Assembly (NCBI GenBank): GCA_021812735.1
Contig: JAKAMV010000055.1
Coordinates: 1 to 21,890 of the forward strand
DNA length: 21,890 bases
Direction: 5' to 3'
Origin: Chloroflexota bacterium
GTDB taxonomy: Bacteria > Chloroflexota > Limnocylindria > Limnocylindrales > CSP1-4
Below, piece by piece: positions 3,371 through 17,714 of the stretch; the stretch's first letter is position 1, and every line of letters begins with the position of its first letter. Both the position numbers and the translations under genes were made by a program. The notes beneath the pieces are model-generated. The model was given only the letters and a program-made list of their open reading frames with translations. It searched no databases and was not told the DNA's origin.

Positions 3371-3766
3371 CTACGGCTCGGCGACGGGAACCCCGATGCG
3401 GGACAGCCCACGGTCGAACGTGAACAGCGGCAGCGCACGCGTTGCGCGCGCCTGGACGGCGATCAGGGCATCCGGTATGGGGCACGAGACGATGGCGCGG
3501 GCACGCAGCAGCGCGTCGGTGGCGTCGTCCGTGTCCATGCCCAGGATCTCGACGTTCTGGCGGCGCACGAGCCCGATCAGCGCGTTGACCACCTCCGTTC
3601 GGTTCACGCCGTACTGGGTCCGCAGCACGTGGGCGCTCTCGACCAGCGCGAGCAGCGAGACACCGAGACGCTCGGACTCGTCGATCAACCGCGTGGCCCG
3701 GGCCGCCTGGTCGGGCGGGGAGCCGACCAGGTACCGCACCAGCACGGACGTGTCCACGGAGATCAC
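3371..3766 (-). CDS. PIN-domain ribonuclease toxin (VapC family)
   Basis: The protein has 131 residues from the GTG at 3766, which overlaps the antitoxin stop as GTGA. It is a single PIN domain with the four acidic metal ligands in order: D5 in ISVDTSVLVRYL, E43 in ALVESAHVL, D99 in IPDALIAV and D118 in TFDRGL. VapC-family proteins are Mg/Mn-dependent endoribonucleases that cut tRNA or rRNA when freed from their antitoxin. The gene is the second cistron of a two-gene operon, the usual order for vapBC. All active-site residues are intact, so the toxin is probably functional. The RNA target cannot be predicted from sequence. Confidence 0.93.
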   Translation of the reverse strand: MISVDTSVLVRYLVGSPPDQAARATRLIDESERLGVSLLALVESAHVLRTQYGVNRTEVVNALIGLVRRQNVEILGMDTDDATDALLRARAIVSCPIPDALIAVQARATRALPLFTFDRGLSRIGVPVAEP

Positions 3767-4065
3767 CCGGGTTCTTCCGCTCGCTCTCCGGAGTCCAGTG
3801 GCACGGGGAGTGCCGCACGGTCAGGATCCGGGGTGGCCGCCGCGGCCGCGCGCAAGGTCTCCCACGATTCGTCCGGGGGATGACGGGTGACCGCGCCGGC
3901 AAGGACCCCGGCGAGTGATCGGCGGTGGCGTGCAGAGACGATCTCCACGACGATCCGGCCGTCCTCCACCCGCTGGACCGCCTCGTCGCCCGCGTAGATC
4001 CCCAACTCCTCGCGGATCGCCTTGTCGATCGTGATCTGCCCGCGCTCTCCTACTCGGCTGCTCAT
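3763..4065 (-). CDS. AbrB/MazE-type antitoxin (VapB)
   Basis: The protein has 100 residues from the ATG at 4065. The N-terminal 45 residues form a swapped-hairpin AbrB fold, with RGQITIDKAIREELGI followed by GDEAV and a second beta strand (GRIVVEIVSA); this part binds operator DNA. The C-terminal half, from about residue 48, is Pro/Asp/Glu-rich and probably disordered until it wraps around the PIN toxin (SLAGVLAG then DESWETLR). It precedes and overlaps the toxin gene. No Shine-Dalgarno is visible upstream; the adjoining AT-rich palindrome at 4069-4091 is a likely operator for autorepression by the complex. Pairing with VapC rests on context and domain type. Confidence 0.92.
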   Translation of the reverse strand: MSSRVGERGQITIDKAIREELGIYAGDEAVQRVEDGRIVVEIVSARHRRSLAGVLAGAVTRHPPDESWETLRAAAAATPDPDRAALPVPLDSGERAEEPG

Positions 4066-4169: not shown

Positions 4170-5948
4170 TCATCCCGGCACGCAGGCCACGGCCTTGCCG
4201 TCGGGCTGCAGGCAGGCCTCGCCGACGGTCCCGCCGCTGATGATGCCGATGCGCAGGACGCCGGCGGCGGCGAACGCCAGCCAGCACTCGCCCGGCCGGA
4301 ACGTCGCGCTCCCGCTTCCGCCGCGCGAGCACGCGGCACCATCGACGCCCTGCCTGGCGCCGAGGACGTGGGGCCAGCCCGCCCGCACCCGGCCGTCGGG
4401 GCCGAGCGCCACGACCGCGTCGTGGATGGTCGCCCCGGAGCCGGCCCGCGTGGCGAGGTAGAGAGTGCCGTCGGGGCCCGGCACGGGCGGCAGGGCTCCC
4501 GGGCTGCCACCCGTCGCTCCCGAGAGCAGCGCCCCGTCGGACAGCACCGTCGCGTAGGGCCAGCCGGGCTTCACCTTCCCGTCCGGGCCGAGGGCGTACA
4601 CCAGGTCGCCACCCGCGCCCCACGCGCCCTTGCCGGCCGCCACGTAGACCGTGCCATCGGGACCCACCACCGGTGGCTCGCCGACCGCGACCTGACCCTC
4701 GCCCATACTGGTGTGCAGCGGGCCCACCCCGGCCGGCAGCCGGAACGGCCAGCCCGCCCGGGACGTGCCGTCCGGGGCGAGCGCCAGCACTTCGTGGACC
4801 CCGAGATCGAGCGATACGCCGATCACGAAGCCCGCCACCAGGTAGGCCGTGCCGTCGCTGCCGAACGCGGGTTCGGACAGCGGGACCGGCGTGCTGTACG
4901 GCCAGCCCGTCGTCGGGTGGCCCGACGCGTCGAGGGCTGCCAGGTACGAGCGGCGCAGGTCAATGAGCGTGCCGCCGGTGCCAAGGCTGAAGGAAGCGCC
5001 CTCGGCGTACACGGTGCCCAGCGGCGAGCGGACGAGGCCCCAGCCGACGCCGGCGATGCGGTATGGCGCGGGCGAGCGGGTCCCGGCGGGCCCGAAGGTG
5101 AAGATCGCGCTGTCGAGCTGGTGGAACGTGTGCAGGGTGGCGACGAGGTAGGCGGTCCCGGCGCCATCGAACACGGGATCCGACACGCCGTAGCAGGGCG
5201 TGAACGCGTAGCGCCAGCCACTGCCACCTGAGTCGCTTGCTACCAGCGTGGAGCGCTGATCGCCGACCGTGTCGGGCCCGCTGACGATCTGGTAGCGGGT
5301 GCCGTCCGGGCTCGTCGTGACCGCGCCCTCGTAGGTCACGGGCCCGGGCGCCATGACGACCACCGGGCAGGGGCCGGTGCCGCGCCAGCTGGCCTGCAGG
5401 CCGCCGGACACACCGCCGGCCGCAGCCGGCCCCGCCGGCACCAACGCCCGCAGGGAGAGGAAGGCCGGATGGTCGAACGAGGCGGTGTAGGTCGCCACGC
5501 CGTCCGCGTCCGTGGTGGCGGTCGCGATCGTCGTCCAGACCACCGGGCGAAGCGACGTGAGCGACTGGACCTGGAGCGTCCTGCCGGCGAGCGTCCCGCC
5601 CCCGTCGAACCGCCAGGTCACCGCCTGTCCGAGCGCCGGCACCTTGGTCGAGCGGGTGAACGGTCCGCCGGTCGTGCTCCCGAGCGCCGAGCTCACGATG
5701 ATCCCGACCTGGCCCAGGGGCGGCGCTGCGCTCGAGGGCCCGGGCTCAGGGCTCGCGGTCGACGCCGGTGCCGGCAACGACGACGCACCGTGTGGCCCCG
5801 ATGGCGCGGGTGTGGAGGGTACAACACTCACGTTCGCGAGCCCGGTGGTCGCCGATGGCGCCGGGCCGCCACACGCCGCCACGAGCAGCGCCACGAGCAG
5901 GGCGACGGCGGGCTGCGGCGCTGGCCCCCACGATCCCGATCGCCTCAT
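4170..5948 (-). CDS. Lipoprotein with Ig-like region and beta-propeller repeats
   Basis: The protein has 592 residues. The N-terminus is a lipoprotein signal: RR at 2-3, a hydrophobic run ALLVALLVA, then lipobox LVAAC with the lipidated cysteine at 26. A Ser/Pro/Ala-rich linker follows to about residue 75. Residues 80-190 look like a beta sandwich (VTWRFDGGG, TTDADGVATYTASF). From about 200 to the end come irregular beta-propeller blades; the C-terminal ones show the pattern GWPY/F-x(n)-GPDGTLYLA seen in the neighbouring anti-sigma protein. Cysteine pairs near 193/258 and close to the C-terminus could form disulphides outside the membrane. It is therefore exported and anchored. A GGAG lies about 11 bases before the ATG. 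No enzymatic motif is seen. Its role is unknown; context suggests a partner or target of the sigma/anti-sigma system upstream. Confidence 0.8.
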   Translation of the reverse strand: MRRSGSWGPAPQPAVALLVALLVAACGGPAPSATTGLANVSVVPSTPAPSGPHGASSLPAPASTASPEPGPSSAAPPLGQVGIIVSSALGSTTGGPFTRSTKVPALGQAVTWRFDGGGTLAGRTLQVQSLTSLRPVVWTTIATATTDADGVATYTASFDHPAFLSLRALVPAGPAAAGGVSGGLQASWRGTGPCPVVVMAPGPVTYEGAVTTSPDGTRYQIVSGPDTVGDQRSTLVASDSGGSGWRYAFTPCYGVSDPVFDGAGTAYLVATLHTFHQLDSAIFTFGPAGTRSPAPYRIAGVGWGLVRSPLGTVYAEGASFSLGTGGTLIDLRRSYLAALDASGHPTTGWPYSTPVPLSEPAFGSDGTAYLVAGFVIGVSLDLGVHEVLALAPDGTSRAGWPFRLPAGVGPLHTSMGEGQVAVGEPPVVGPDGTVYVAAGKGAWGAGGDLVYALGPDGKVKPGWPYATVLSDGALLSGATGGSPGALPPVPGPDGTLYLATRAGSGATIHDAVVALGPDGRVRAGWPHVLGARQGVDGAACSRGGSGSATFRPGECWLAFAAAGVLRIGIISGGTVGEACLQPDGKAVACVPG

Positions 5949-6118: not shown

Positions 6119-8320
6119 TCATGGGGCCGGTGTCGCGAGCGTGCCGTCGGGCGCGTATCGCACGACGATGGTCACCTCCGAGACGGCCGCGGTGACGGCC
6201 TGACCCATGACGGCGACGCCGCCATCCGGGGTGGGGGCGAGCCAGCTCACCTGGGCGTGCGAGGGCAGATCCTGCGGCCAGCCGGCAGCGGGGTGGCCGT
6301 TCAGGCCTACCAGCAGCACGCCGCCCCCTGCGACATCGCCCTGCATGGTGGTCGAGGCGAGGTACACGCCGCCCGGCGCGACCAGCGGCCCCATCGGCGG
6401 ACCGCCGGGGATCGCGAACGGCGCGAAGCTGCCGAACCGCGTGCCGTCCGGCAGCACGTACGGCCAGCCCGCGACTGGATGCCCCGTGTCATCGAAGGCG
6501 GCGAGGACCGCTCGTGTCGTGGTGCCCCCGGCCACGTAGAGGGTGCCGTCCGACGCGACCACCGGCGGCTGCGGCGAGAACAGGGTGCCCGGGTTGCCGC
6601 TCGACTGCAGCCCGACCATGCCGGCGGGCAGCGCGACCGGCCAGCCCGGGACCGTGCGTCCCGACGGGTCGAGCGCGACGAGCGAGCCCGTGCGGGAGAC
6701 CGACGGGTCGCCGAGGGTGAGGTACGCCGTGTCGCCGGAACCGAAGGCCGGCGCCGAGGCCGCGCCGGCAACGCGGACCGGCCAACCGGGCCTCGCCTTC
6801 CCGCTCGCGTCAAGCGCGGCGATCTCGGTGCTGGCGATGGTGTAGGCGTGGCCGCCGGGGGTCGAAGCCGCCTGGTGGCGCCAGGCGTACACCGTGCCGT
6901 CGGGCGCCAGGGCGATGCCGTCCCAGCCGACCACGGGCCACCCTGCACGCTCCGACCCGGAACGCGTGAAGGCGTACAGCGTCCCGTGCGCGTTCGTCTG
7001 CCACCACGTGTCGGAGGCCACCGCCACGTAGAGCGTGCCGTCGGGCCCGAGCAGGGGCGCCGAGAGCATGCCATCGGTCGGGAGGCGCAGCGTCACCGGC
7101 CAGCCCGCGCGTGTCGCTCCGTCGGGGCCGAGGGCGACCAGGTGCGAGGCAAGGCCTGGGCCGGCCGCGTACGTCGCATACAGCGTGCCGTCGGAACCGA
7201 CCAGCAGCGAGTCGATCCGGGTCGCACCCGGGATCGTCACCGGCCAGCCTGCCCGTGCGGTGCCATCCGGCGCGAACGCGACGATGGTGCCCACTCCCGC
7301 CACGAAGAACGTCCCGTCCGATCCGCTCGCGCTCGCGGAGACCCAGCCGCCGAAGGGCAGCCGGACGGGCCAGCCGGGCACGAGCCGTCCCGACGCGTCG
7401 AGCCGGAAGGCCTGCCCGGGCTCACCGGCCACGCCGCCCGCGATGTCGTTGCCTGCGAGGTACACGCTGCCATCCGGACCCGGAGCGGCCTCACCCGACG
7501 AACCGATCTGCAGCGTGACCGGCCAGCCCTGGGGTGCCGGCGTGACCAGCGGACCGGCCGGGGCCGCGCGCAGCAGCACCTCGAAGTAGTCCGTGCCCGA
7601 CTCCTGGTACCGGACCCGCACCTCGCCGCTCGCGGGTGCCTCCCAGCCGAGCCTCCCCGACATCGTCATCCCCGGCTGCAGGTCGGTGACCCAGCCGAGA
7701 TGCGGGGTCGGCCAGCCGGCCTCCGGGTCGAGGAGCGTCGCGCCGAACGTCTTCCAGGCGATGAACCCGATCCCCGGGAACGTGCCGGCCGGGACGTGCA
7801 GCACGTGGAAATCGACGGTGGCCTCGAGGTATACGTCCCCTTCGACGCGCGGCGTCAGCCCGGGCACCGACGCAAGTGTCTGCACGTCGCGCACGCGGAT
7901 CAGCACCGCCGGGCCCTCCGCATCGGCGTACACCGCGACCTGCCCGGGCTCGATCAGCCCGCTGGTGGAAATGGCATCGGGGGCAACGCTGGGGAATGCA
8001 GGCATGCCCGACGGGGCCGGGCTCGGAACGGCGCTCGCCACTGCGGCCGGCGACCCAGGGGCTGTCGCACGGGGCGAGGCTGCCGGTCCTAGGATCGTGC
8101 CGTGCAGCCCGAGCACGGCCAGCAGCGTCCCGCCCACGATCGCGACGGCCGCCACGCCCGCGGCAAGCGCCGTGAGGCGCCGGCGGAGCGGCACCGATGC
8201 ATGCACGGGAGCCTCGCGCGGGATCGCCGCCAGGCGCGCGCGCAGCGCCTCGGGCGGCCCACCGGCCGAGCGCTCGAGCAGGACCGAGCGCAGGTCGTCG
8301 TCGAAGCGATCCGTGCTCAT
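6119..8320 (-). CDS. Putative transmembrane anti-sigma factor with beta-propeller ectodomain
   Basis: The protein has 733 residues from the ATG at 8320, which overlaps the sigma factor stop as ATGA; the open frame further upstream is an out-of-frame reading of the sigma gene. Residues 1-45 are a charged cytosolic segment (DDDLRSVLLERSAG), residues 49-72 one transmembrane helix, then an Ala/Pro/Ser-rich linker. About 105-235 is a beta-sandwich-like domain. From about 240 to the end there are nine repeats of roughly 45 residues with consensus GWPV-x-L...GPDGTLYVA, as in PQQ/YWTD-like beta-propellers. The placement after an ECF sigma gene, the coupled translation and the single helix argue for an anti-sigma role. 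No HxxxCxxC zinc anti-sigma motif is present, and the cytosolic part is shorter than usual, so the function is inferred. Confidence 0.8.
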   Translation of the reverse strand: MSTDRFDDDLRSVLLERSAGGPPEALRARLAAIPREAPVHASVPLRRRLTALAAGVAAVAIVGGTLLAVLGLHGTILGPAASPRATAPGSPAAVASAVPSPAPSGMPAFPSVAPDAISTSGLIEPGQVAVYADAEGPAVLIRVRDVQTLASVPGLTPRVEGDVYLEATVDFHVLHVPAGTFPGIGFIAWKTFGATLLDPEAGWPTPHLGWVTDLQPGMTMSGRLGWEAPASGEVRVRYQESGTDYFEVLLRAAPAGPLVTPAPQGWPVTLQIGSSGEAAPGPDGSVYLAGNDIAGGVAGEPGQAFRLDASGRLVPGWPVRLPFGGWVSASASGSDGTFFVAGVGTIVAFAPDGTARAGWPVTIPGATRIDSLLVGSDGTLYATYAAGPGLASHLVALGPDGATRAGWPVTLRLPTDGMLSAPLLGPDGTLYVAVASDTWWQTNAHGTLYAFTRSGSERAGWPVVGWDGIALAPDGTVYAWRHQAASTPGGHAYTIASTEIAALDASGKARPGWPVRVAGAASAPAFGSGDTAYLTLGDPSVSRTGSLVALDPSGRTVPGWPVALPAGMVGLQSSGNPGTLFSPQPPVVASDGTLYVAGGTTTRAVLAAFDDTGHPVAGWPYVLPDGTRFGSFAPFAIPGGPPMGPLVAPGGVYLASTTMQGDVAGGGVLLVGLNGHPAAGWPQDLPSHAQVSWLAPTPDGGVAVMGQAVTAAVSEVTIVVRYAPDGTLATPAP

Positions 8321-8907
8321 CGCCGGCCTCCGACTCCCGCCCGCTGACCGCCGGCGAGTGGACGGCGTTCGTCGGCCTCGTAGGCTGCCCGCAGTTCGCG
8401 GAGCGCGTAGTGCAGGCGCGACTTGACCGTGCCCCGGCGTACACCGACCCTGGCCGCTATCTCGTCGATCGAGACGTCTTCGACGTGGTGCAGCAGCACG
8501 ACCAGCCGGTGCTCGGGGGTCAGGGCAGCGAGGGCCCGCCGCAATGCGTCGCGCTCGGGACTCGCCGCCAGCGCGTCGGGCGCGGGACCGTCGGCCAGCC
8601 CACCGATGGTGACTGCCCGCAGTTGGCGCCGCCGAATCCGATCGCGGCAGGCGTTCACCACGATGCGGTCGAACCAGGCGTCGAAGCGAGCGGGGTCGCG
8701 CAACTCGGACCAGCGCGCCCATGCCCGCAACCCGGCATCGTGCACGGCGTCCTGCGCCTCAGCGTCGTCCTCGAGCACGGCGCTCGCGAGGCGATAGGCT
8801 CGCTCCAGGCGGCCTGCGGTGAGACGCTCGAACGCGAGCGCCCGTTCGTCTGCTCCCCCCGCCCTGGCCTCCGCCACGGCGACCTCCCAGCTCCCCTCCG
8901 CCATCAT
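8317..8907 (-). CDS. ECF-family RNA polymerase sigma factor
   Basis: The protein has 196 residues from the ATG at 8907. A GTG at 8922 and a second ATG at 8904 are in frame; 8907 is preferred because a putative -10 element (8916-8919) overlaps the region between GTG and ATG. Region 2 runs from about residue 27 to 95, with DAEAQDAVHDAGLRAWARW and the 2.3/2.4 segment FDAWFDRIVVNACRDRIRRR. After a linker, region 4 spans about 118-175, with LTPEHRLVVLLHHVEDVS and a helix-turn-helix IDEIAARVGVRRGTVKSRLH. Regions 1 and 3 are missing, as in all ECF sigmas. There is no extra C-terminal SnoaL-type domain. It directs polymerase to a small regulon and is probably held by the coupled membrane protein downstream. 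Confidence 0.93.
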   Translation of the reverse strand: MMAEGSWEVAVAEARAGGADERALAFERLTAGRLERAYRLASAVLEDDAEAQDAVHDAGLRAWARWSELRDPARFDAWFDRIVVNACRDRIRRRQLRAVTIGGLADGPAPDALAASPERDALRRALAALTPEHRLVVLLHHVEDVSIDEIAARVGVRRGTVKSRLHYALRELRAAYEADERRPLAGGQRAGVGGRR

Positions 8908-8915
8908 GCCATCCA

Positions 8916-8941
8916 GACGCACGAGCCGGATGGCAGGTTCA
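8916..8941 (-). promoter_or_regulatory. ECF-type autoregulatory promoter of the sigma gene
   Basis: On the minus strand a -35-like TGAACC (8936-8941) is separated by 16 bases from a -10-like CGTC (8916-8919). ECF promoters commonly have an AAC core in the -35 element and CGTC or GTC in the -10 at this spacing. Transcription would begin at or next to the ATG at 8907, giving a leaderless message. Confidence 0.4.
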
Positions 8942-9021: not shown

Positions 9022-9276
9022 TCACCCCACGCGCTTGAGCCGTCCGGTGCGCTTGGCGTAGCGCTCGGCGCGCGCGAACACCCATAGTCCGAGAGGCACG
9101 AGGACCACGCCCATCACGACGAGCGGCCACGCGTCCCCCAGGAGGGATGTCGCCGACACGTTCTGCACGAGGCCCTTCCGCACCGCGTCGAGCACGTAGG
9201 TGGCCGGCGAGAAGCGCGACACCACCTGCATCCAGCCCGGCAGGATGTCCACGCTGTAGTACACCCCAATCAAGTG
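9022..9276 (-). pseudogene. ABC-2 type transporter permease, C-terminal remnant
   Basis: About 84 codons match the end of a DrrB/ABC-2 permease: GVYYSVDILPGWMQVVSRFS is the conserved pre-helix loop, followed by PATYVLDAVRKGLVQNVS, one transmembrane helix (WPLVVMGVVLVPLGLWVFA) and a basic tail RYAKRTGRLKRVG to the TGA. Intact permeases have about 250 residues and six helices; here the five N-terminal helices are missing. The same frame upstream, to 9477, gives Cys/His/Gly-rich sequence unrelated to a permease, and no ATPase partner is near. It is therefore read as a 5'-truncated remnant. A weak hairpin (GTCGCC 8969-8974 with GGCGAC 8980-8985) follows the stop. Translation of a short membrane peptide from a later start cannot be excluded. 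Confidence 0.7.
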
Positions 9277-9835
9277 CCACGCCGCCGCTGGCGGGACACG
9301 TGTCCCGCGACCGCCGTCTCCCGAGCGTTCGTTCACCTCCACGCGCAATTCGCCGTGTCCAGCGCCCGCAGCCGTACCTGCCACCGGCCTGCAGCACGGG
9401 CATCCCTCAGGGCGATGCCGCCCGCAAGTCGTGTGGGCCATGACACAGCGGACCGGATGGATGATGCCCTGGAGCATGCCTCTGGCCGAACAGGGTCAGG
9501 AGCCGCTGCGGCAGGATGAGGAGAACCGACATCATGCGCGCGCCGAACAAGAGGCAGGCGGGAAGGCCACCCCAGGATCGGGCACGGGGCACCGCGGTGG
9601 AAGCAACAGGGGAACTCCCGGAGGTGGCGTTCGAGTCAATCAACGTGTTCGACGCCGCGGAGAATCGCTGCAGGGAATCGCTGGATGACAGGTGACCGGC
9701 CAAGGAGTCGGTCATCACAGCTGGCCGCTGGCATGCGCGCCCCGACTTCCACGCGCGAGCCGCTCGCACCCAACCGGCGCTCGAAGGCTGCAGAGGGGCC
9801 GGCAGCCTGGCCGCTCGCAATCCGAAGGCGCGCCC
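9277..9835. other. Intergenic stretch with no confident gene
   Basis: Between the permease remnant and the glucosidase, codon texture is poor in all frames and no known domain is recognisable. One minus-strand frame has a short hydrophobic run (MMSVLLILPQRLLTLFG near 9500) followed by a His-rich tail, without a convincing start or context. The only candidate gene is the 53-codon ORF at 9534-9695. The stretch may be decayed sequence left by the event that truncated the permease. Confidence 0.6.
9534..9695 (+). CDS. Possible small protein, 53 residues, unknown function
   Basis: This ORF has an ATG preceded by a good Shine-Dalgarno AGGAG (9519-9523, ten bases away). The N-terminal third is basic (MRAPNKRQAGRPPQDRAR), the rest acidic and hydrophilic (GELPEVAFESINVFDAAENR), with one cysteine and no membrane segment. 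About three quarters of third codon positions are G or C, somewhat less than neighbours. Its TGA overlaps a GTG (9692-9694) that opens the frame of the downstream glucosidase, so it could act as a coupled leader; the 48 codons after that GTG do not look like protein, however. No family is recognised, and it may be chance. Confidence 0.3.
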   Translation: MRAPNKRQAGRPPQDRARGTAVEATGELPEVAFESINVFDAAENRCRESLDDR

Positions 9836-12640
9836 ATGCCGGAGCGCAGTGTGAGCGCGTCGACGGAGCGATTGGCCGCGAATGAGGCTGGATCCGATCC
9901 CGAAAGCCTCCGCCTGGCCGAGGCACGTGGCGGAGTCGCCTGGAAGCGCTGGGGGCCGTACCTGGCGGAACGGGCGTGGGGCACGGTCCGGGAGGACTAC
10001 TCCCCAGGCGGCGATGCGTGGCGCTCGTTCGGGCACTCCGACGCCCGCCAGCGCGCCTACCGCTGGAGCGAGGACGGCCTGCTCGGGATCTCCGACGACC
10101 AGCAGCGGCTCTGTGTCGCGCTGTGCCTCTGGAACGAGCGTGATCCGATCCTGAAGGAGCGGCTCTTCGGCCTCACCAACCCGGAGGGCAATCACGGCGA
10201 GGACGTCAAGGAGCTGTACTTCTACCTCGACGCGTTGCCCAGCGCAGCGCTCCTGCGGGCGGCGTACCTCTATCCCCAGCGGGAATTTCCCTACACCGAT
10301 CTCGTCCGGGAGAACGCGCGACGAGCCGGCCACGGCCCGGAGTACGAGCTGCTGGACACCGGCGTGCTGGACGACGATCGCTTCTTCGACGTCGAGGTCG
10401 TCTACGCGAAGGCGGGGCCCGAGGCGATCGTGCTGCGCGTGCGCGCCACGAACCGCGGCCCCGATCCGGCCCCACTGCACCTGCTGCCCATGGCCTGGTT
10501 CCGGAACACGTGGGCGTGGGAGGACACGTCGGTCGAGCGGCCGTCGTTGCGCGTGACGGCCGACGGGGTGGTCGCCGAACATCCCACGCTCGGCCGGTAC
10601 CGGCTCGCGGCCGAGGCGGACGACGCGCCGATCGAGTGGCTGTTCACCGACAACGAGACGAACGAGGTGGCGCTCTACGGGTCGCCACCAGAGACTGCGG
10701 CGCGGTACACGAAGGACGCCGTTCACCGCTACCTGGTGGCCGGCGAGAGCGCCGCGGTCAATCCCGAAGGAATTGGGACCAGAGCCGCCGCTCACGCGCG
10801 CTGGATCGTCCCGCCTGGCGGCACCGCCGAGATTCGGTTGGCGCTCGTTGCCGATGGCGTGGCCGACGCTGCGGAGCTGGCCGGCACCGCCGATGCGGTG
10901 ATCACGGCTCGCACCGCGGACGCCGACCGTTTCTACGAGGCCCTCGCCTGGCCCTCGATGAGCGCCGAGGAGCGGCTCGTGCAGCGCCAGGCGCTGGCCG
11001 GACTCCTCTGGTCGTTCGAGTACTACGCCTACGACGTCGCCCGCTGGCGCAGGGGAGACCGGATTGCCCCGCCGGCCGGCCATGCAGAGACCCGGAATCG
11101 CGAGTGGGGCGAGCTGAGAGCGGCCGCCGTCCTGAGCGTGCCGGACACCTGGGAGTATCCCTGGTTCGCGGCCTGGGACCTTGCCTTCCAGGCGGTCACG
11201 CTCGGCCTGGTCGATCCCGACCGGGCCAAGGAGCAGCTCCTGGCCCTGCTCGACGACCGGCTGCTCCACCCGAGCGGCCAGATCCCGGCCTACGAATGGG
11301 AGTTCTCCGACCCGAACCCGCCGGTCCAGGCGTGGGCCGCGCTGCGGGTCTACGGTCGCGAGAAGCACATGACCGGCCACGGCGATCGCGCCTTCCTGGA
11401 ACGGATGCTACACGGCCTCACCCTCAACTTCGGCTGGTGGGTGAATCGCCGTGATCGCGACGGTCGCAACCTCTTCGAGGGCGGCTTCCTGGGCCTCGAC
11501 AACATCTCGATCCTCGATCGAAGTGCGATCGAGGCGGCGGGCGAGACGCTCGACCAGGCGGACGCCACGGGTTGGATCGCGTTCTTCGCCCTCGGGCTCA
11601 CCGAGATGGCTCTCGAGCTCGCCCTCGAGGAGCCCGTCTACGTGGAGCTCGCCAAGCACTTCCTTGGCCGCTTCGTGGCCATCGGCGAAGCGCTCGCGCG
11701 CGTCGGCGGCGAGGGACTCTGGGACCCCGACCAGGAGTTCTTCTTCGACCTGCTGCGCCAGCCGGGCCATGTACCCACGCGCCTGCGGGCGTTCTCGATC
11801 GCCGGGTTGGTGCCGCTGTTCGCGACGCGGGTCCTCGACCCGGAGCTGCTCGAGCGCGTGCCCGGGTTCGCGGCCTACCTGCGCCAGCTGGCAGGCGAAC
11901 AAGCGCACTTCTTCGGGGCCTGCGACTGCTTCAGCCGTGCCGGCCCGGACGGTCGGTGGCTCCTTGCGCTGGTCGATCAGCACCGCCTGTCGCCCATCCT
12001 CGACAGAATGCTCGGCGAGGACCGGTTCCTCTCGCCCCATGGCGTGCGCAGTGTCTCCCGGCGCCATCGGGAACGGGACCTGCCCGTGGACGTGACGCTG
12101 GACGGCATGACCTCTCGGGTGGAGTACGAACCGGCCGAGGCCGAGACCAGGATCAAGGGCGGAAACTCGAACTGGCGTGGTCCGGTCTGGTTCCCGCTCA
12201 ACTACCTGCTCTGGCAGGCGCTGCGCCAGTATGGCCGGTACTACGGGGAGATGGTGCGCCACCCGCTGCCGTCCGACGACGGAGCTCCGTCGGACCTTCG
12301 GTCCATCGCAGAGGACATCGGCCGGCGCCTGGTCACGCTCTACCTGCCCGCCCCCGACGGACGCCGGCCGGCGCAGGGTCCTGACGCGCGTTGGCGCGAC
12401 CACCCGGCCTTCCGGAACCGGCTCCTCTTCTTCGAGTACTTCCACGGCGAGACCGGCCAGGGCCTCGGAGCGTCCCACCAGACCGGCTGGACGGCGCTGA
12501 TCGCGAACCTGATCGACGAACTCCATCGTCCGTCCTCCGCGAGCGGCATGTCGGGCGAGGAATCGCCGGAGGTGGTGCCCGGGTCGGGAGCACGGCTCAC
12601 GGATCCGAACGGAAACGTGGGGCCGGGCGGTGGATCGTGA
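9836..12640 (+). CDS. Large MGH1/GH63-like alpha-glucosidase
   Basis: The protein has 934 residues from the ATG at 9836, with GAAGG at 9824-9828; an in-frame GTG at 9692 would add a low-complexity basic tail and is not favoured. Residues 30-360 form the N-terminal beta-rich region (GLLGISDDQQRLCVALCLWN; GVLDDDRFFDVEVVYAK). The (alpha/alpha)6 catalytic barrel follows from about 370, with PWFAAWDLAF (442-451), YEWEFSDPNPPVQAW (486-500, likely catalytic acid D492), FEGGFLGLDN (547-556), WRGPVWFPLNY (from 780) and EYFHGETGQGLGASHQTGWT (867-886, likely catalytic Glu 867 or 872). The family (GH63 and relatives, such as mannosylglycerate/glucosylglycerate hydrolases and YgjK) releases glucose or mannose by inversion. 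There is no signal peptide, so it acts in the cytosol. The stop overlaps the methyltransferase start. The substrate is unknown. Confidence 0.88.
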   Translation: MPERSVSASTERLAANEAGSDPESLRLAEARGGVAWKRWGPYLAERAWGTVREDYSPGGDAWRSFGHSDARQRAYRWSEDGLLGISDDQQRLCVALCLWNERDPILKERLFGLTNPEGNHGEDVKELYFYLDALPSAALLRAAYLYPQREFPYTDLVRENARRAGHGPEYELLDTGVLDDDRFFDVEVVYAKAGPEAIVLRVRATNRGPDPAPLHLLPMAWFRNTWAWEDTSVERPSLRVTADGVVAEHPTLGRYRLAAEADDAPIEWLFTDNETNEVALYGSPPETAARYTKDAVHRYLVAGESAAVNPEGIGTRAAAHARWIVPPGGTAEIRLALVADGVADAAELAGTADAVITARTADADRFYEALAWPSMSAEERLVQRQALAGLLWSFEYYAYDVARWRRGDRIAPPAGHAETRNREWGELRAAAVLSVPDTWEYPWFAAWDLAFQAVTLGLVDPDRAKEQLLALLDDRLLHPSGQIPAYEWEFSDPNPPVQAWAALRVYGREKHMTGHGDRAFLERMLHGLTLNFGWWVNRRDRDGRNLFEGGFLGLDNISILDRSAIEAAGETLDQADATGWIAFFALGLTEMALELALEEPVYVELAKHFLGRFVAIGEALARVGGEGLWDPDQEFFFDLLRQPGHVPTRLRAFSIAGLVPLFATRVLDPELLERVPGFAAYLRQLAGEQAHFFGACDCFSRAGPDGRWLLALVDQHRLSPILDRMLGEDRFLSPHGVRSVSRRHRERDLPVDVTLDGMTSRVEYEPAEAETRIKGGNSNWRGPVWFPLNYLLWQALRQYGRYYGEMVRHPLPSDDGAPSDLRSIAEDIGRRLVTLYLPAPDGRRPAQGPDARWRDHPAFRNRLLFFEYFHGETGQGLGASHQTGWTALIANLIDELHRPSSASGMSGEESPEVVPGSGARLTDPNGNVGPGGGS

Positions 12641-13606: not shown

Positions 13607-15154
13607 CTACTGCTCCGAGCTACGGGGGGCGTGACCGCGGATGCGGAACAGGTGGAAGCCGGCGGGCGGCATCTCCAGGTAGAGGCCACGAGCGAGCAGG
13701 TCGTCGCCGTCGCGCACGTAGCGCGCCTCGCTCAGCTGGTCCTCGAACTCGATGGCCCGTCCGGCGAAATCGGGCAGGTTCAGTGGCACGAAACAACGGC
13801 CCGTGGACGCGCCGAGGTTCGCGACCGCGAGCCGCAGCGAGCGGCGCGGCCCGACCCACAGCCAGGCCACGAACGCGCGGTTGGTGGCGTCACCTCCCCA
13901 GGTCGGCAGTGGCTCGAGATGGACAGGACTGCCGCGGCGGAACGTGTCCGCGGAGATTGCCGCGAGGAGGCGGTCGTAGAAGCGACGGAGGTCGGTGTCG
14001 ATGGGCTCGTCGGGCCGGCGCACGAGCTCGACCGGGGTCCGGATGCGTGCGCCGTCGAGCTGCCCGTCGTGGAGCAGGAGCATGCCCGGGGCAGTCGCAG
14101 TGACCAGCGCGGCAGCCCGCAGGCGGTCGGGGGGCAGGACCGCCGCGGCGCGCGGCTCGTCGTGGTTCTCCAGGAAGCGAACGGAGCGGCGCTGGTAGTC
14201 GAGATCGGCGCGCAGATGCGCCGCTACCTCCTCGCCCGGGCCGGCACGCAGGTGGTCGAGCAGCACCTTGTCGTAGGTGTCATCGAAGCCGAGCTGCTGC
14301 AGGCGGTACTCCAGGCCCCAGTACGCCTCCGCGATCATGAGCACGTCGGGGTATCGCTCGCGCAGACCGCGGATGGCGTGCCACCAGAACTCGCCGGCCG
14401 GGGAATCGCCGGTGGCGGGCGCGGTCGATCGGCCCTGCCATGTCCTGCAGAAGATGTCCTCCAGGACGAGCATCGCCATGTCGCAGCGAACGCCGTCGCA
14501 GCGCGACGCGACCTGGAGGAGCAAATCGGCCATGGCCGTGCGGAGGGCGGGGACCCGATAGTCGAGCTGCGCCGTGTCCCGCCAGGCCGGGAAGTACGGG
14601 TCCCGACCATGCGCCAGCCGGAGGCTGTGGCCGCCGGCACGCACCGTGAACCACCCCCCGGGATCGGCCTCGACGAGGCTGTCGGAGCCCTGGACGTACC
14701 ACTCAGGGTGCCGATGGACCCAGGGGTGATCCGTGGCCGTGTGGTTGGGCACGAAGTCGAGAATCAGACCGACGCCAGCATCGGCCAGGCGCCCGCGGAA
14801 CAGCGCAAGCCCCTCGTCGCCGCCGAGATCCGGAGCAACCTCGTACGCGGCGACCGCATACGGAGACCCCACGATGTCCGCCGGCGAGACGTCGGGGAGG
14901 ATCGCCGCGGCCTGCTTCCGGAGCCCAGTGTCCTCGCGCCAGAACCGCCGTCCGGCCGGGCCGCTGCGCCAGACGCCCATGAGCCACACGAGGTCCGCTC
15001 CCGTCTCGAGTACCGGTGCAAGGTCGTCGCGCCCGACATCAGCGAGCCTGAACCGCCGGCCGTGGCGACGCGACAGCCGCTGCAACCAGGACCGGGCGTC
15101 GATCTCGTACAGGATGGGGTGGCGCGTTTCGCGTACCCGCAGTGGCGGCCTCAT
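13607..15154 (-). CDS. GH13 alpha-amylase-family glycosidase, cytosolic
   Basis: The protein has 515 residues from the ATG at 15154, with GGGA about ten bases upstream; a further upstream open frame lacks protein-like sequence. GH13 regions occur in order: I DFVPNHT (133-139), II GVRCDMA with nucleophile D225, III MIAEAYW with acid/base E276, and IV FLENHDEPRA with H331 and transition-state stabiliser D332. A C-terminal beta domain (LRLAVANLGASTGRCFVPLNL) ends the protein. The catalytic triad is intact. No signal peptide is seen, so an intracellular alpha-glucan, maltooligosaccharide or trehalose-type substrate is likely; the exact specificity is unknown. It faces the glucosidase-methyltransferase pair tail to tail, and the two may serve the same carbohydrate store. 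Confidence 0.9.
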   Translation of the reverse strand: MRPPLRVRETRHPILYEIDARSWLQRLSRRHGRRFRLADVGRDDLAPVLETGADLVWLMGVWRSGPAGRRFWREDTGLRKQAAAILPDVSPADIVGSPYAVAAYEVAPDLGGDEGLALFRGRLADAGVGLILDFVPNHTATDHPWVHRHPEWYVQGSDSLVEADPGGWFTVRAGGHSLRLAHGRDPYFPAWRDTAQLDYRVPALRTAMADLLLQVASRCDGVRCDMAMLVLEDIFCRTWQGRSTAPATGDSPAGEFWWHAIRGLRERYPDVLMIAEAYWGLEYRLQQLGFDDTYDKVLLDHLRAGPGEEVAAHLRADLDYQRRSVRFLENHDEPRAAAVLPPDRLRAAALVTATAPGMLLLHDGQLDGARIRTPVELVRRPDEPIDTDLRRFYDRLLAAISADTFRRGSPVHLEPLPTWGGDATNRAFVAWLWVGPRRSLRLAVANLGASTGRCFVPLNLPDFAGRAIEFEDQLSEARYVRDGDDLLARGLYLEMPPAGFHLFRIRGHAPRSSEQ

Positions 15155-15477
15155 CGGGGCATCCCAGGGAGCGGCCGACCCACGCACGACCGGATGAAGG
15201 GCGTGCGCGCATCCATGCTCGGGAGCCGGCATCCAAGTGACGTGTTCCCGCGCTTCACCGATCTCCTCGCCATAGGTGCGCCGCCGTCGCGGCCGCTCAG
15301 GTCGAGTCTGCCCGAGGTCGCGCGCCCGCGCTGTGTTGCTCCGTACAGGTTGCTCTGCACAGGCGACCCCCGAGGGCGCGGTCGCTGGGCACCGCACGAG
15401 CCGAGTGAGCGGCCACGCTGGCGGCCGCACCCGACCTGGTCCCCGCGGTCGCCCCGAAGCCCGGCGTCCCCGGCCCG
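15155..15477. other. Intergenic region upstream of the GH13 gene
   Basis: About 320 bp lie between the GH13 start and the arsR stop. No domain or convincing ORF is seen, and it presumably holds the GH13 promoter. The one recognisable structure is a 14-bp imperfect tandem repeat at 15335-15362. No terminator with a T-run was found for the mer operon. Confidence 0.55.
15335..15362. repeat. 14-bp imperfect tandem repeat
   Basis: GTTGCTCCGTACAG (15335-15348) is followed directly by GTTGCTCTGCACAG (15349-15362), with two transitions between copies. CTGTG (15331-15335) and CACAG (15358-15362) bracket the pair as short inverted arms. It could be a binding site upstream of the GH13 gene; no regulator is assigned. 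Confidence 0.5.
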
Positions 15478-15858
15478 TCAGCCTGGCACTGCACTCTCGC
15501 GTTCCGTGGCCAGGACCAGGCACGAGCTCAGGCGGGTCGCGTTGTCGCGGACGATGGCCTCGCCGAGGCGAATGATCTCGCGGACACGGTCGTCCACAAG
15601 CCGGTAGCGGTTGTAGCGACCCTCGGCGCGTGCCTCCACGTACCCGCACCAGCGCAGACAGGACAGGTGGCTCGACACACGCCCCTGGGCGAGATCCAGG
15701 CGCTCCACCAGCTCGGTGACGGTCAGGGGTCGTTCGGCCAGCAGTTCCAGGATCCGCACGCGGGTCGGATCGGACAGGCCCTGGTAGAAGGCCGCCAGCA
15801 CCTCGTGGCGGCCCAGCGTGGCTGCGCGGCCGGCAGCCGCCGGTAGATTGCTGGTCAT
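15478..15858 (-). CDS. ArsR-family metal-sensing repressor, CmtR/actinobacterial MerR type
   Basis: The protein has 126 residues from the ATG at 15858. A winged helix-turn-helix runs from about 20 to 95 (LSDPTRVRILELLAERPLTV, TELVERLDLAQGRVSSHLSC). The arsenic motif ELCVCDL is absent. Instead C67 and C71 lie in the recognition helix (SHLSCLRWCGYV) and C113 near the C-terminus (SSCLVL), the layout of Mycobacterium CmtR (C57, C61, C102, Cd/Pb) and of ArsR-type mercury repressors of Streptomyces. As the last gene of the HMA-MerA operon it most likely senses Hg(II), or another thiophilic ion, and represses the promoter at 17613-17644. It lies 52 bases after merA, with a weak ribosome site. Confidence 0.9.
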   Translation of the reverse strand: MTSNLPAAAGRAATLGRHEVLAAFYQGLSDPTRVRILELLAERPLTVTELVERLDLAQGRVSSHLSCLRWCGYVEARAEGRYNRYRLVDDRVREIIRLGEAIVRDNATRLSSCLVLATERESAVPG

Positions 15859-15910
15859 CCCGGGGCGCCGTCGCAGGCGGGGATCAACATGCCCAGTGCG
15901 CGCACCGCGC

Positions 15911-17338
15911 TCATTCCGCGCAGCACGACAGCTTCGACACGTCCCGGCTGAAGGCCTGGGCGCCGATCTTGAGGGCCTCGCTCATGGTCGGGTAGACGTG
16001 GATCAGCTCCACGAAGTCGGCCAGGGTGGCCTGGAAGTGCATGGCCATTGCCGCCTCGTGGATGATCTCGGGCGCTGACTCGCCGATCACGTGGACGCCC
16101 AGCACGCGCTCATCGATGGTGGACGCGATGAACTTCACGAAGCCGGTTGTCTTGTGGACCGCCCCGGCGCGCGGGACGTACATGAGCGGCGTCGTGGCGG
16201 CGACCGCGGGGTCGTGGCGGGCTCGCACCTCGGCCTCGGTCTCGCCCACGACCGCGACCGGCGGGTCCGTGAAGATCGCCCGCGGGATGACGGCGCCGTC
16301 GAACGTCTTGCCGGCGTCGGCGAAGGCGTTGTCGGCGACGATCCGTCCCTGCCGGGCGCCGACCGGGGTGGCCATCTGGGAGCGGTGCTGGCGGCCGATG
16401 ACGTCGCCCGCCGCCCAGATGTGCGCCGCGCTGGTGCGCAGCCGCGCGTCGACGGCGACGGAGCCGTCCTGCTCGACCGCGACCCCGGCTGCCGCGAGGT
16501 TGAGCGTGTCGGTGTTCGGCGTCCGGCCGGTGGCCACGAGGAGCCGGTCGGCCTGGATGCGGCGTCCGGCCCCGGCCTGCTCGACCGAGACCTCCACGCC
16601 GCCGGCGTCGCCGCGGACGTGGTCGACCCGGGCATTGGCGAGGACCTCGATCCCCTCGGCGGTGAACACTTCGGTCAGTCCCTGGCCGAGCTCGGGCTCG
16701 TAGCCGCGCAGGAGCCCGGAGCGGGCGACGACCGTTACCCGGCTGCCCAGGCGGCTGAACATCTGGGCGAGCTCGACCGCGATGTAGCCGCCGCCCAGGA
16801 CGACGAGCGACGCGGGGAGGTCCGTGAGCCGGCCCGCCTCGTCGGCGTCGAGCAGGTCGCTGGTGAGGTAGGGAATGTCCGCCAGGCCCGGGATCGCGGG
16901 GATCGTCGGGCGACTTCCCGTGGCGATCAGGATCCGGTCCCCGGTCACCTGCCGGTCGCCCACCCTCACTCCGTGGGGATCGACAAAGGCGGCATCGCCC
17001 TCGATCAGCTCCAGCTCGGTGAGCCCGCCGGCGACGCTGGCGTACTTCTTCGCCCGGTAGTCCCGGACGACGTCGTCCTTCTGGGCCACGAGCACCGGGA
17101 AGTCGACCTCGACGCTCGCCGGCTTCAGCCCGGCGTACCGGGGGTGCGCCGCCTCGTGGACGATGCGTGCCGCCTCGATGAGGTTCTTCGACGGCAGGCA
17201 GCCCCGGTTGGCGCAGGTCCCGCCGAGCGTCCGGCGTTCGACCATCGCGACGCGCGCCCCGAGGTCCGCCGCGCGGATGGCAGCGGCGAAGGCGGTGGAG
17301 CCCGAGCCCAGGATCAGCAGGTCGAACGGGTCATTCAC
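15911..17338 (-). CDS. merA: Mercuric reductase without N-terminal HMA domain
   Basis: The protein has 475 residues from the GTG at 17338; the start overlaps the preceding HMA gene by eight bases, and the open frame further upstream is out of register with that gene. The FAD site is [14 protein letters not shown] (7-20), the redox pair is C42/C47 in [13 protein letters not shown], the NADPH motif is [14 protein letters not shown], and the second FAD contact is [10 protein letters not shown]. The C-terminal dimerisation domain ends in LSCCAE, the vicinal cysteines (472/473) that deliver Hg(II) to the active site; [10 protein letters not shown] contains the conserved Tyr. These C-terminal cysteines separate MerA from lipoamide or glutathione reductases. 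It reduces Hg(II) to volatile Hg(0) with NADPH in the cytosol. No merB or merT is present in the window. Confidence 0.95.
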
Positions 17339-17579
17339 CGGAGGCCGCCCGGCGCCGCCGCTCGAAGGCGTTGTACTGGCCGATGGCACGCACGGCGGTG
17401 GCCAGTGCGGCCGCCTGGACGTCCGGGCGCGCGGTGACGACCGCACTGCGCGTGGCGAGGTCGACGGTCGCCGACTCGACGCCGGGTACGGACTCCAGCG
17501 CCTCGGTGACATGCACGACGCAGTCGTCGCAGGTCATGCCTCCGACGCCGAGGTCGATGTAGACGAGTGGCTGGTTCAT
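17331..17579 (-). CDS. Free heavy-metal-associated (HMA) domain protein, NmerA-like
   Basis: The protein has 82 residues from the ATG at 17579, with AGGAG at 17589-17593, nine bases before the start. The fold is a single ferredoxin-like HMA domain: GGMTCDDC holds the metal-binding cysteine pair, followed by [20 protein letters not shown] and [20 protein letters not shown]. It lacks the signal peptide of periplasmic MerP, so it should stay in the cytosol. It is the first gene of the operon and overlaps merA by eight bases. The likely job is that of NmerA, the domain often fused to MerA, which catches Hg(II) and hands it to the MerA C-terminal cysteines. A copper chaperone is the alternative, but the neighbours favour mercury. 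Confidence 0.9.
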
Positions 17580-17612
17580 GGTCGAGTGCTCCTGTTGAAT
17601 GCGCCGTTGCTT

Positions 17613-17644
17613 ATGCAAATACTGTATCACGTATGCATGGACAA
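17613..17644 (-). promoter_or_regulatory. Promoter and operator of the mer operon
   Basis: On the minus strand, TTGTCC (17639-17644) and TATTTG (17616-17621) are 17 bases apart, as for a housekeeping promoter. Between and over them lie ATGCAAATAC (17613-17622) and GTATGCAT (17631-17638), an inverted repeat with a two-base bulge, plus ATACTGTAT (17619-17627). This AT-rich dyad is a good candidate operator for the ArsR-family repressor encoded at the end of the operon. Confidence 0.5.
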
Positions 17645-17698
17645 GGCCGACGAGATGTTCGTGTTTGCCAGGTGAGGCTGCCGGGAGTCCTGAGGTTC

Positions 17699-17714
17699 GG
17701 CCGGTCAACCGGCC
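17699..17714 (-). terminator. Hairpin spanning the pgi stop codon
   Basis: GGCCGG (17699-17704) and CCGGCC (17709-17714) form a perfect 6-bp stem; the four-base loop holds the pgi TGA stop. It sits at the end of the zwf-HAD-tal-pgi operon, just ahead of the mer promoter. No T-run follows, so terminator function is tentative. Confidence 0.4.

Follow-up and report, generated by a model that had tools for sequence, protein, structure and literature searches.

NepR and CnrY, the latter anchored in the membrane, are short anti-sigma proteins without zinc. Paired with EcfG and CnrH, respectively, they represent class II anti-sigma systems (PMC8103513, in part), and the two helices of CnrY wrap round its sigma factor, standing where class I domains have helix 1 and helix 4 (PMC7406223, in part). 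Here, we describe a 21,890-nt stretch of DNA from a Chloroflexota bacterium (contig JAKAMV010000055.1; hereafter, the window) that encodes an extracytoplasmic function (ECF) sigma factor and, directly behind it, a membrane protein (the partner) with a short cytosolic head and a beta-propeller on the outside. The two proteins probably represent a sigma factor and its membrane anti-sigma factor. We assign this reading a probability of roughly three in four. The head is linked to sigma genes almost without exception across unrelated ectodomains, and no sigma gene was seen beside propellers that lack the head.

In gene order, membrane anchor and variable outer domains the locus is similar to class I membrane anti-sigma factors (RsiW, RskA and the zinc type), and the second helix of the head is weakly like helix 4. 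However, class I domains of about 100 residues (mean 101; PMC7406223, in part) comprise a three-helix bundle plus helix 4, whereas the head has about 45 residues, leaving no room for a three-helix core, and displayed two helices in a low-confidence model. In agreement with the original prediction, the head is this short and lacks the zinc motif HxxxCxxC; residues 1-45 contain no cysteine. A short cytosolic part without zinc is shared with CnrY/CnrH, and two helices in such a part, as in class II CnrY, were obtained both when the partner was modelled alone and when sigma factor and head were modelled together, the predicted local distance difference test (pLDDT) score of the head being low in either case. 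No anti-sigma domain model in Pfam matched the head, and in NCBIfam a single one (TIGR03988) did so below threshold. Comparison of 45 heads with both libraries yielded no reliable family: two were weakly similar to DUF7380 (best 0.0048), six to the RsrA model TIGR03988 (best E-value 0.015) and others matched singly. A PDB profile search with the head returned 11 chance-level matches, among them neither CnrY, NepR nor any other anti-sigma protein, the domain being too short for a firm negative. A protein search with partner residues 1-110 returned only P0003, a result of little weight since only 7994 word-sharing candidates were scored. By sequence, the head is unlike described anti-sigma domains, as had been anticipated, but a two-helix arrangement has a precedent in class II CnrY (PMC7406223, in part). 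No publication on such heads was found in the open subset of PubMed Central; they may have been mentioned earlier in ECF classification work.

The heads follow a consensus of approximately D-[DE]-R-[FL]-[ED]-x2-[LV]-R-x2-[LF]-x8-P-x2-L-R-x-R-V-x2-I-P, which reads RFxxxLRxxL...PxxLRxRVxxIP in the window. Profiles spanning only head and membrane helix were assembled from 13 heads (A2) and from 32 heads (A4), nearly all rows of A4 stemming from loci previously seen as sigma-linked. With profile A2 (E-value 1e-4), 121 genomes of the class to which genome G001 belongs were searched, and 27 of them yielded 56 matches. A4 matched in 63 genomes out of all 177 of the class (1e-6) and, in a sample of 301 genomes from the phylum, in 20 (1e-5). 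At most 48, 34 and 20 candidates per genome were scored in these three surveys, respectively, so that the numbers of heads are at least those given. At least one genome of the phylum sample (G377) seemingly lies outside the class, being absent among the class genomes with matches. To count linkage, we considered heads at an E-value of 1e-4 together with same-strand sigma genes whose end falls within -60 to +100 nt of the start of the head, leaving out loci L063-L110, which had been fetched by propeller or zf-HC2. A sigma gene adjoined 146 of the 152 distinct heads, 100 of them at -4 nt and 11 at -1 nt; for two of these 146 (L021, L061) the sigma gene was called from a weak fragment. Among the six remaining heads, L164 has a chosen start that puts the overlap at -68, and the profile match at L129 falls on the part of a zinc-motif anti-sigma protein towards helix 4, its sigma gene lying 165 nt ahead of the start used for counting. 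The second head of L138 as well as L236 and L237, for which 60 to 93 nt upstream are visible, were kept in the count as untestable, and the last one (L215) is weighed below. A conserved domain linked to sigma genes, the short head is absent from the family libraries searched; it may be class II-like, a shrunken class I domain or a kind of its own. A second, looser head type (approximately RxVRSWLxxxxxxxPDRVLDxVLDxVxxTPQRR) was also observed beside sigma genes at L124, L127, L136, L138 and L145.

Behind the head, the outer parts differ widely. Alignment A5 comprises 73 of the 76 heads known at that stage; in 73 partners we observed sortilin-/BNR-like repeats (11 by one model), DUF4232 (7), Kelch repeats (3), SecDF head (2), PD40 (2), HlyD-like (1) and AMIN-like (1) domains, and others. 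The set of sigma-head pairs numbered 143, of which 141 had an ectodomain long enough for clustering; these fell into 34 clusters, the largest with 56 members (blastp E-value 1e-4, 60 residues, single linkage). For 47 of the 141 pairs the nearest sigma relative belonged to a different ectodomain cluster, and at sigma distances of 0.2-0.4 an ectodomain cluster was shared by 131 of 226 pairs. By this comparison of sequences, the outer part is freely swapped behind the sigma-linked head in related environmental bacteria, whereas extra domains have been described as well conserved within an anti-sigma group (PMC7406223, in part).

The propeller offers the converse comparison. By eye, most of the 120 proteins listed among 180 partner homologues lack such a head, many having lipoprotein-like starts; one relative (P0020) carries the source name Candidatus Limnocylindrales, class Candidatus Limnocylindria, Chloroflexota. 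A propeller search of the 121 genomes (E-value 1e-8) returned 18 rows corresponding to 16 propeller genes. All three with a head stand directly after a sigma gene (G001:C79, G001:C149 and G022:C21; loci L001, L009 and L044). The other 13 are headless and carry other N-termini, and no sigma gene lies beside any of the 12 that could be tested, the 13th (G099:C302) being at a contig end; the upstream sequence seen amounted to about 525 to more than 1000 nt, in one case about 90 nt. By plain counting, three of three against none of 12 corresponds to one chance in 455. Hence, the head and not the propeller tracks the sigma gene and is the sigma-linked part. It had been proposed that propeller homologues found mostly without a sigma gene would speak against a regulatory pair. 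Literally, this is the situation in the 121 genomes (13 of 16, one untestable), but that test probes the wrong part of the protein, since it is the head that tracks the sigma gene. One further homologue, P0004, is 82% identical to the partner in the window, with its head replaced by an N-terminus resembling that of a sigma factor, as though sigma gene and head had disappeared jointly. Over its first 13 residues, P0004 agrees with the sigma factor of the window at 7 positions and with that of L001 at 8, against at most 6 for the other proteins compared. We did not retain this N-terminus as a sigma-gene remnant, as local alignment gave no signal above shuffles and the resemblance is suggestive only.

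If the partner is an anti-sigma factor, its two-helix head would bind the sigma factor at the membrane and keep it from RNA polymerase, while the outer propeller and the strand region could sense a ligand, the state of the wall or a partner protein. The signal would then release the sigma factor through intramembrane proteolysis or a change of shape, and the freed sigma factor would act on TGAAC-N17-CGTC promoters, both that of its own operon and those of other genes. Several observations weigh against this reading or limit its support. The structure prediction of sigma factor plus head, which had been recommended as a check, was run on the L205 pair, in which both are encoded in one frame; it was folded as a single chain with 44 sigma relatives (alignment A7), among which the head had no relatives. 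The sigma part was confident and the head helical, but the mean pLDDT of ten-residue blocks from residue 181 was 63, 49, 57, 44 and 36, and no confident contact between head and sigma factor emerged. In favour of the pair, the correlation of distances was r 0.60 for sigma factor and head compared with 0.12 for sigma factor and adjoining membrane helix; the helix is a weak control given its low complexity, however, and in another data set true pairs reached 0.82 and non-interacting controls 0.5-0.6 (PMC7406223, in part), so that 0.60 lies in the control range. Mutual information between sigma factor and head exceeded that of 20 random re-pairings, a control that leaves kinship in. When the 25 top pairs were read for a preference of helix 1 for sigma4 and of helix 2 for sigma2, nine were for it, nine against it and seven in linkers or ends. 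Finally, the head-bearing gene of L215 (688-2194, plus strand) has 727 nt of upstream sequence with no sigma gene and is the sole real exception to the linkage. Genome linkage thus supports the original claim of regulation by the partner via its head, whereas the model provides no contact in its favour.

The shape of the modelled sigma factor adds little on this point. One-body superposition gave a root-mean-square deviation (rmsd) of 3.2 to CnrH (4cxf, 138 aligned), 3.2 to SigG1 (7qh5), 3.7 to SigW bound by RsiW (5wuq, 147 aligned) and 4.6 to the NepR-bound sigma factor (5uxx, 151 aligned). The placement of sigma2 and sigma4 is unlike that of an RNA polymerase-bound sigma factor (about 26) or of SigK with its anti-sigma factor (4nqw, 11.0). 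This closed shape may simply be the output of the program for any free ECF sigma factor and says little on the head.

With regard to origin and binding mode, and compatible with an anti-sigma function, the head could be a shrunken class I domain that kept helix 1 and helix 4 and lost the zinc or three-helix core, its second helix (PxxLRxRV) corresponding to the old sigma2-binding helix 4. We consider this derivation possible, though tentative. It would fit the profile match at L129, and several zinc-motif proteins of the same class bear APxxLRxRV-like stretches after the zinc site. Of 29 zinc-motif proteins, 11 scored above 95% of shuffles and three above 99%; shuffles served as the only control, the background of natural proteins being contaminated by head-bearing frames (99% point at 20 bits). 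In two of four groupings, profile alignment scored 15.5 and 15.1, where the best of 60 column shuffles each reached 14.0 and 14.2, respectively, but the other two were near chance (2 and 4 of 60 shuffles as good). Two of the six heads with weak similarity to TIGR03988 were examined and align to profile positions 41-70 of 77. Yet all scores are weak, with an hhalign probability of about 5%, helix 1 gave no signal above shuffles, and convergence on a short amphipathic helix could account for the likeness.

FecR-type regulators bring their sigma factor to the membrane and aid its activation on a signal. A head acting in this manner, as recruiter and activator, would produce genome evidence identical to that expected for an inhibitor, and sequence data do not separate inhibition from activation; its layout resembles that of the inhibitor CnrY, and we regard an activating role as unlikely. 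Also unlikely is the absence of any regulatory link, in which case the partner would simply be the leading target in the operon of the sigma factor and its head a membrane-insertion signal: an autoregulated operon would likewise put a target gene there, but a plain insertion signal need not follow the sigma gene over 34 ectodomain clusters, and propeller relatives without the head start with other N-termini and lack a sigma gene in all 12 testable cases.

The first gene of the pair encodes an ECF sigma factor: Sigma70_r2 and Sigma70_r4_2 exceeded their gathering scores, and TIGR02937 reached 78.5 bits against a cut-off of 42.9. The top-scoring model, SigE-fam_strep (TIGR02983), remained with 115.3 bits below its curated cut-off of 141.55. 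The overlap of sigma stop and partner start was confirmed. An ECF-type promoter motif precedes the sigma gene (Table 1), and L001 has the motif at an equal position. Within the window the pattern occurs twice against 0.53 expected, and since 13 of 100 shuffles also reach two matches, the single site is not significant alone. Across the head-linked sigma genes, TGAAC-N16-18-CGTC precedes 42 of 143, including that of the window, compared with a mean of 0.28 and a maximum of 2 in single-letter shuffles (143 of the 146 sigma genes; 200 nt before the conserved sigma part). This count points to autoregulation of such sigma-head operons.

The architecture of the partner agreed with what had been noticed from the sequence, namely a short head, one membrane helix, a beta region and nine GWP repeats. 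No ectodomain family matched it at 0.001 in the family-model scan. The repeat region gave a beta-propeller fold match; Foldseek found propellers without resolving the number of blades, and further comparison pointed to the nine-blade Cake type. The designed Cake/Scone propellers share fold and repeat sequence with the partner, and BamB and YxaL share the fold; unlike all of these, its propeller belongs to a membrane protein whose gene accompanies a sigma gene. In ECF57, WD40-like repeats are linked with the sigma factor in its own C-terminal extension (PMC8999054, in part), whereas here the propeller resides on a separate membrane protein. A region like the beta-strand part was also seen in P0098, ahead of other repeats without GWP.

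Table 1. Features of the sigma-partner locus and the adjoining GWP-repeat gene (positions in the window)
Feature	Position	Strand	Basis or remark
ECF-type promoter TGAAC-N17-CGTC	8916..8941	-	ends 8 nt ahead of sigma ATG
ECF sigma factor, 196 aa, regions 2 and 4	8317..8907	-	family models
ATGA overlap of sigma stop and partner start	8317..8320	-	
Membrane partner, 733 aa, proposed anti-sigma factor	6119..8320	-	
Cytosolic head, residues 1-45, helices 3-16 and 24-31	8186..8320	-	sequence and model
Transmembrane helix, residues 45-72 in model	8105..8188	-	structure model
Pro/Ser/Ala-rich linker, residues 73-112, pLDDT mostly low	7985..8104	-	
Beta-strand (sandwich-like) region, residues 113-260	7541..7984	-	
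Nine GWP repeats, residues 265-733, beta-propeller	6122..7528	-	repeats and fold match
Second GWP-repeat protein, lipoprotein-like N-terminus, no head	4170..5948	-	170 nt downstream of partner, homologous repeats

L001 has no GWP protein downstream of its partner. Elsewhere in the window, the frame upstream of the sigma gene (9022-9477, minus strand) has an end that, by eye, is similar to the terminal portion of an ABC-2 transporter permease, with no Pfam match at 1e-5, and is possibly a remnant. A PIN-domain protein (3371-4065, minus strand) lies beside a small frame which, on inspection, resembles an AbrB-type antitoxin but had no Pfam match at 1e-5. An MGH1/GH63-like glycoside hydrolase (9692-12640, plus strand) and an alpha-amylase family protein (13607-15649, minus strand) were also observed. 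At 15478-17708 (minus strand), a pyridine nucleotide-disulphide oxidoreductase and a heavy-metal-associated domain protein (Pfam), together with a frame ArsR-like by eye, look like a mercury or metal resistance cluster.

Taken further, the head could be a standard plug carrying different sensors. The chances appear evenly balanced that a minimal, coreless two-helix anti-sigma domain serves as a universal plug in one Chloroflexota class, with dozens of sensors (GWP propellers, sialidase-like and Kelch repeats, DUF4232, HlyD-like domains and others) each wired to its own ECF sigma factor via the same 40 residues, in a family absent from Pfam and NCBIfam. If true, these one-step signalling systems would form a family that is centred on one lineage and freely re-tooled. 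Anti-sigma surveys rely on domain models, and in a large one, candidates shorter than 50 residues were set aside because they might be class II domains (PMC7406223, in part). Such a filter would lose this head of about 40 residues, which occurs in more than a third of the class genomes surveyed with A4 and, where the DNA was read, nearly always by a sigma gene. Should the head bind its sigma factor, it would show how little suffices for holding an ECF sigma factor, give a likely regulator to many sigma genes of uncultured Chloroflexota and offer a natural plug for engineered sensors.
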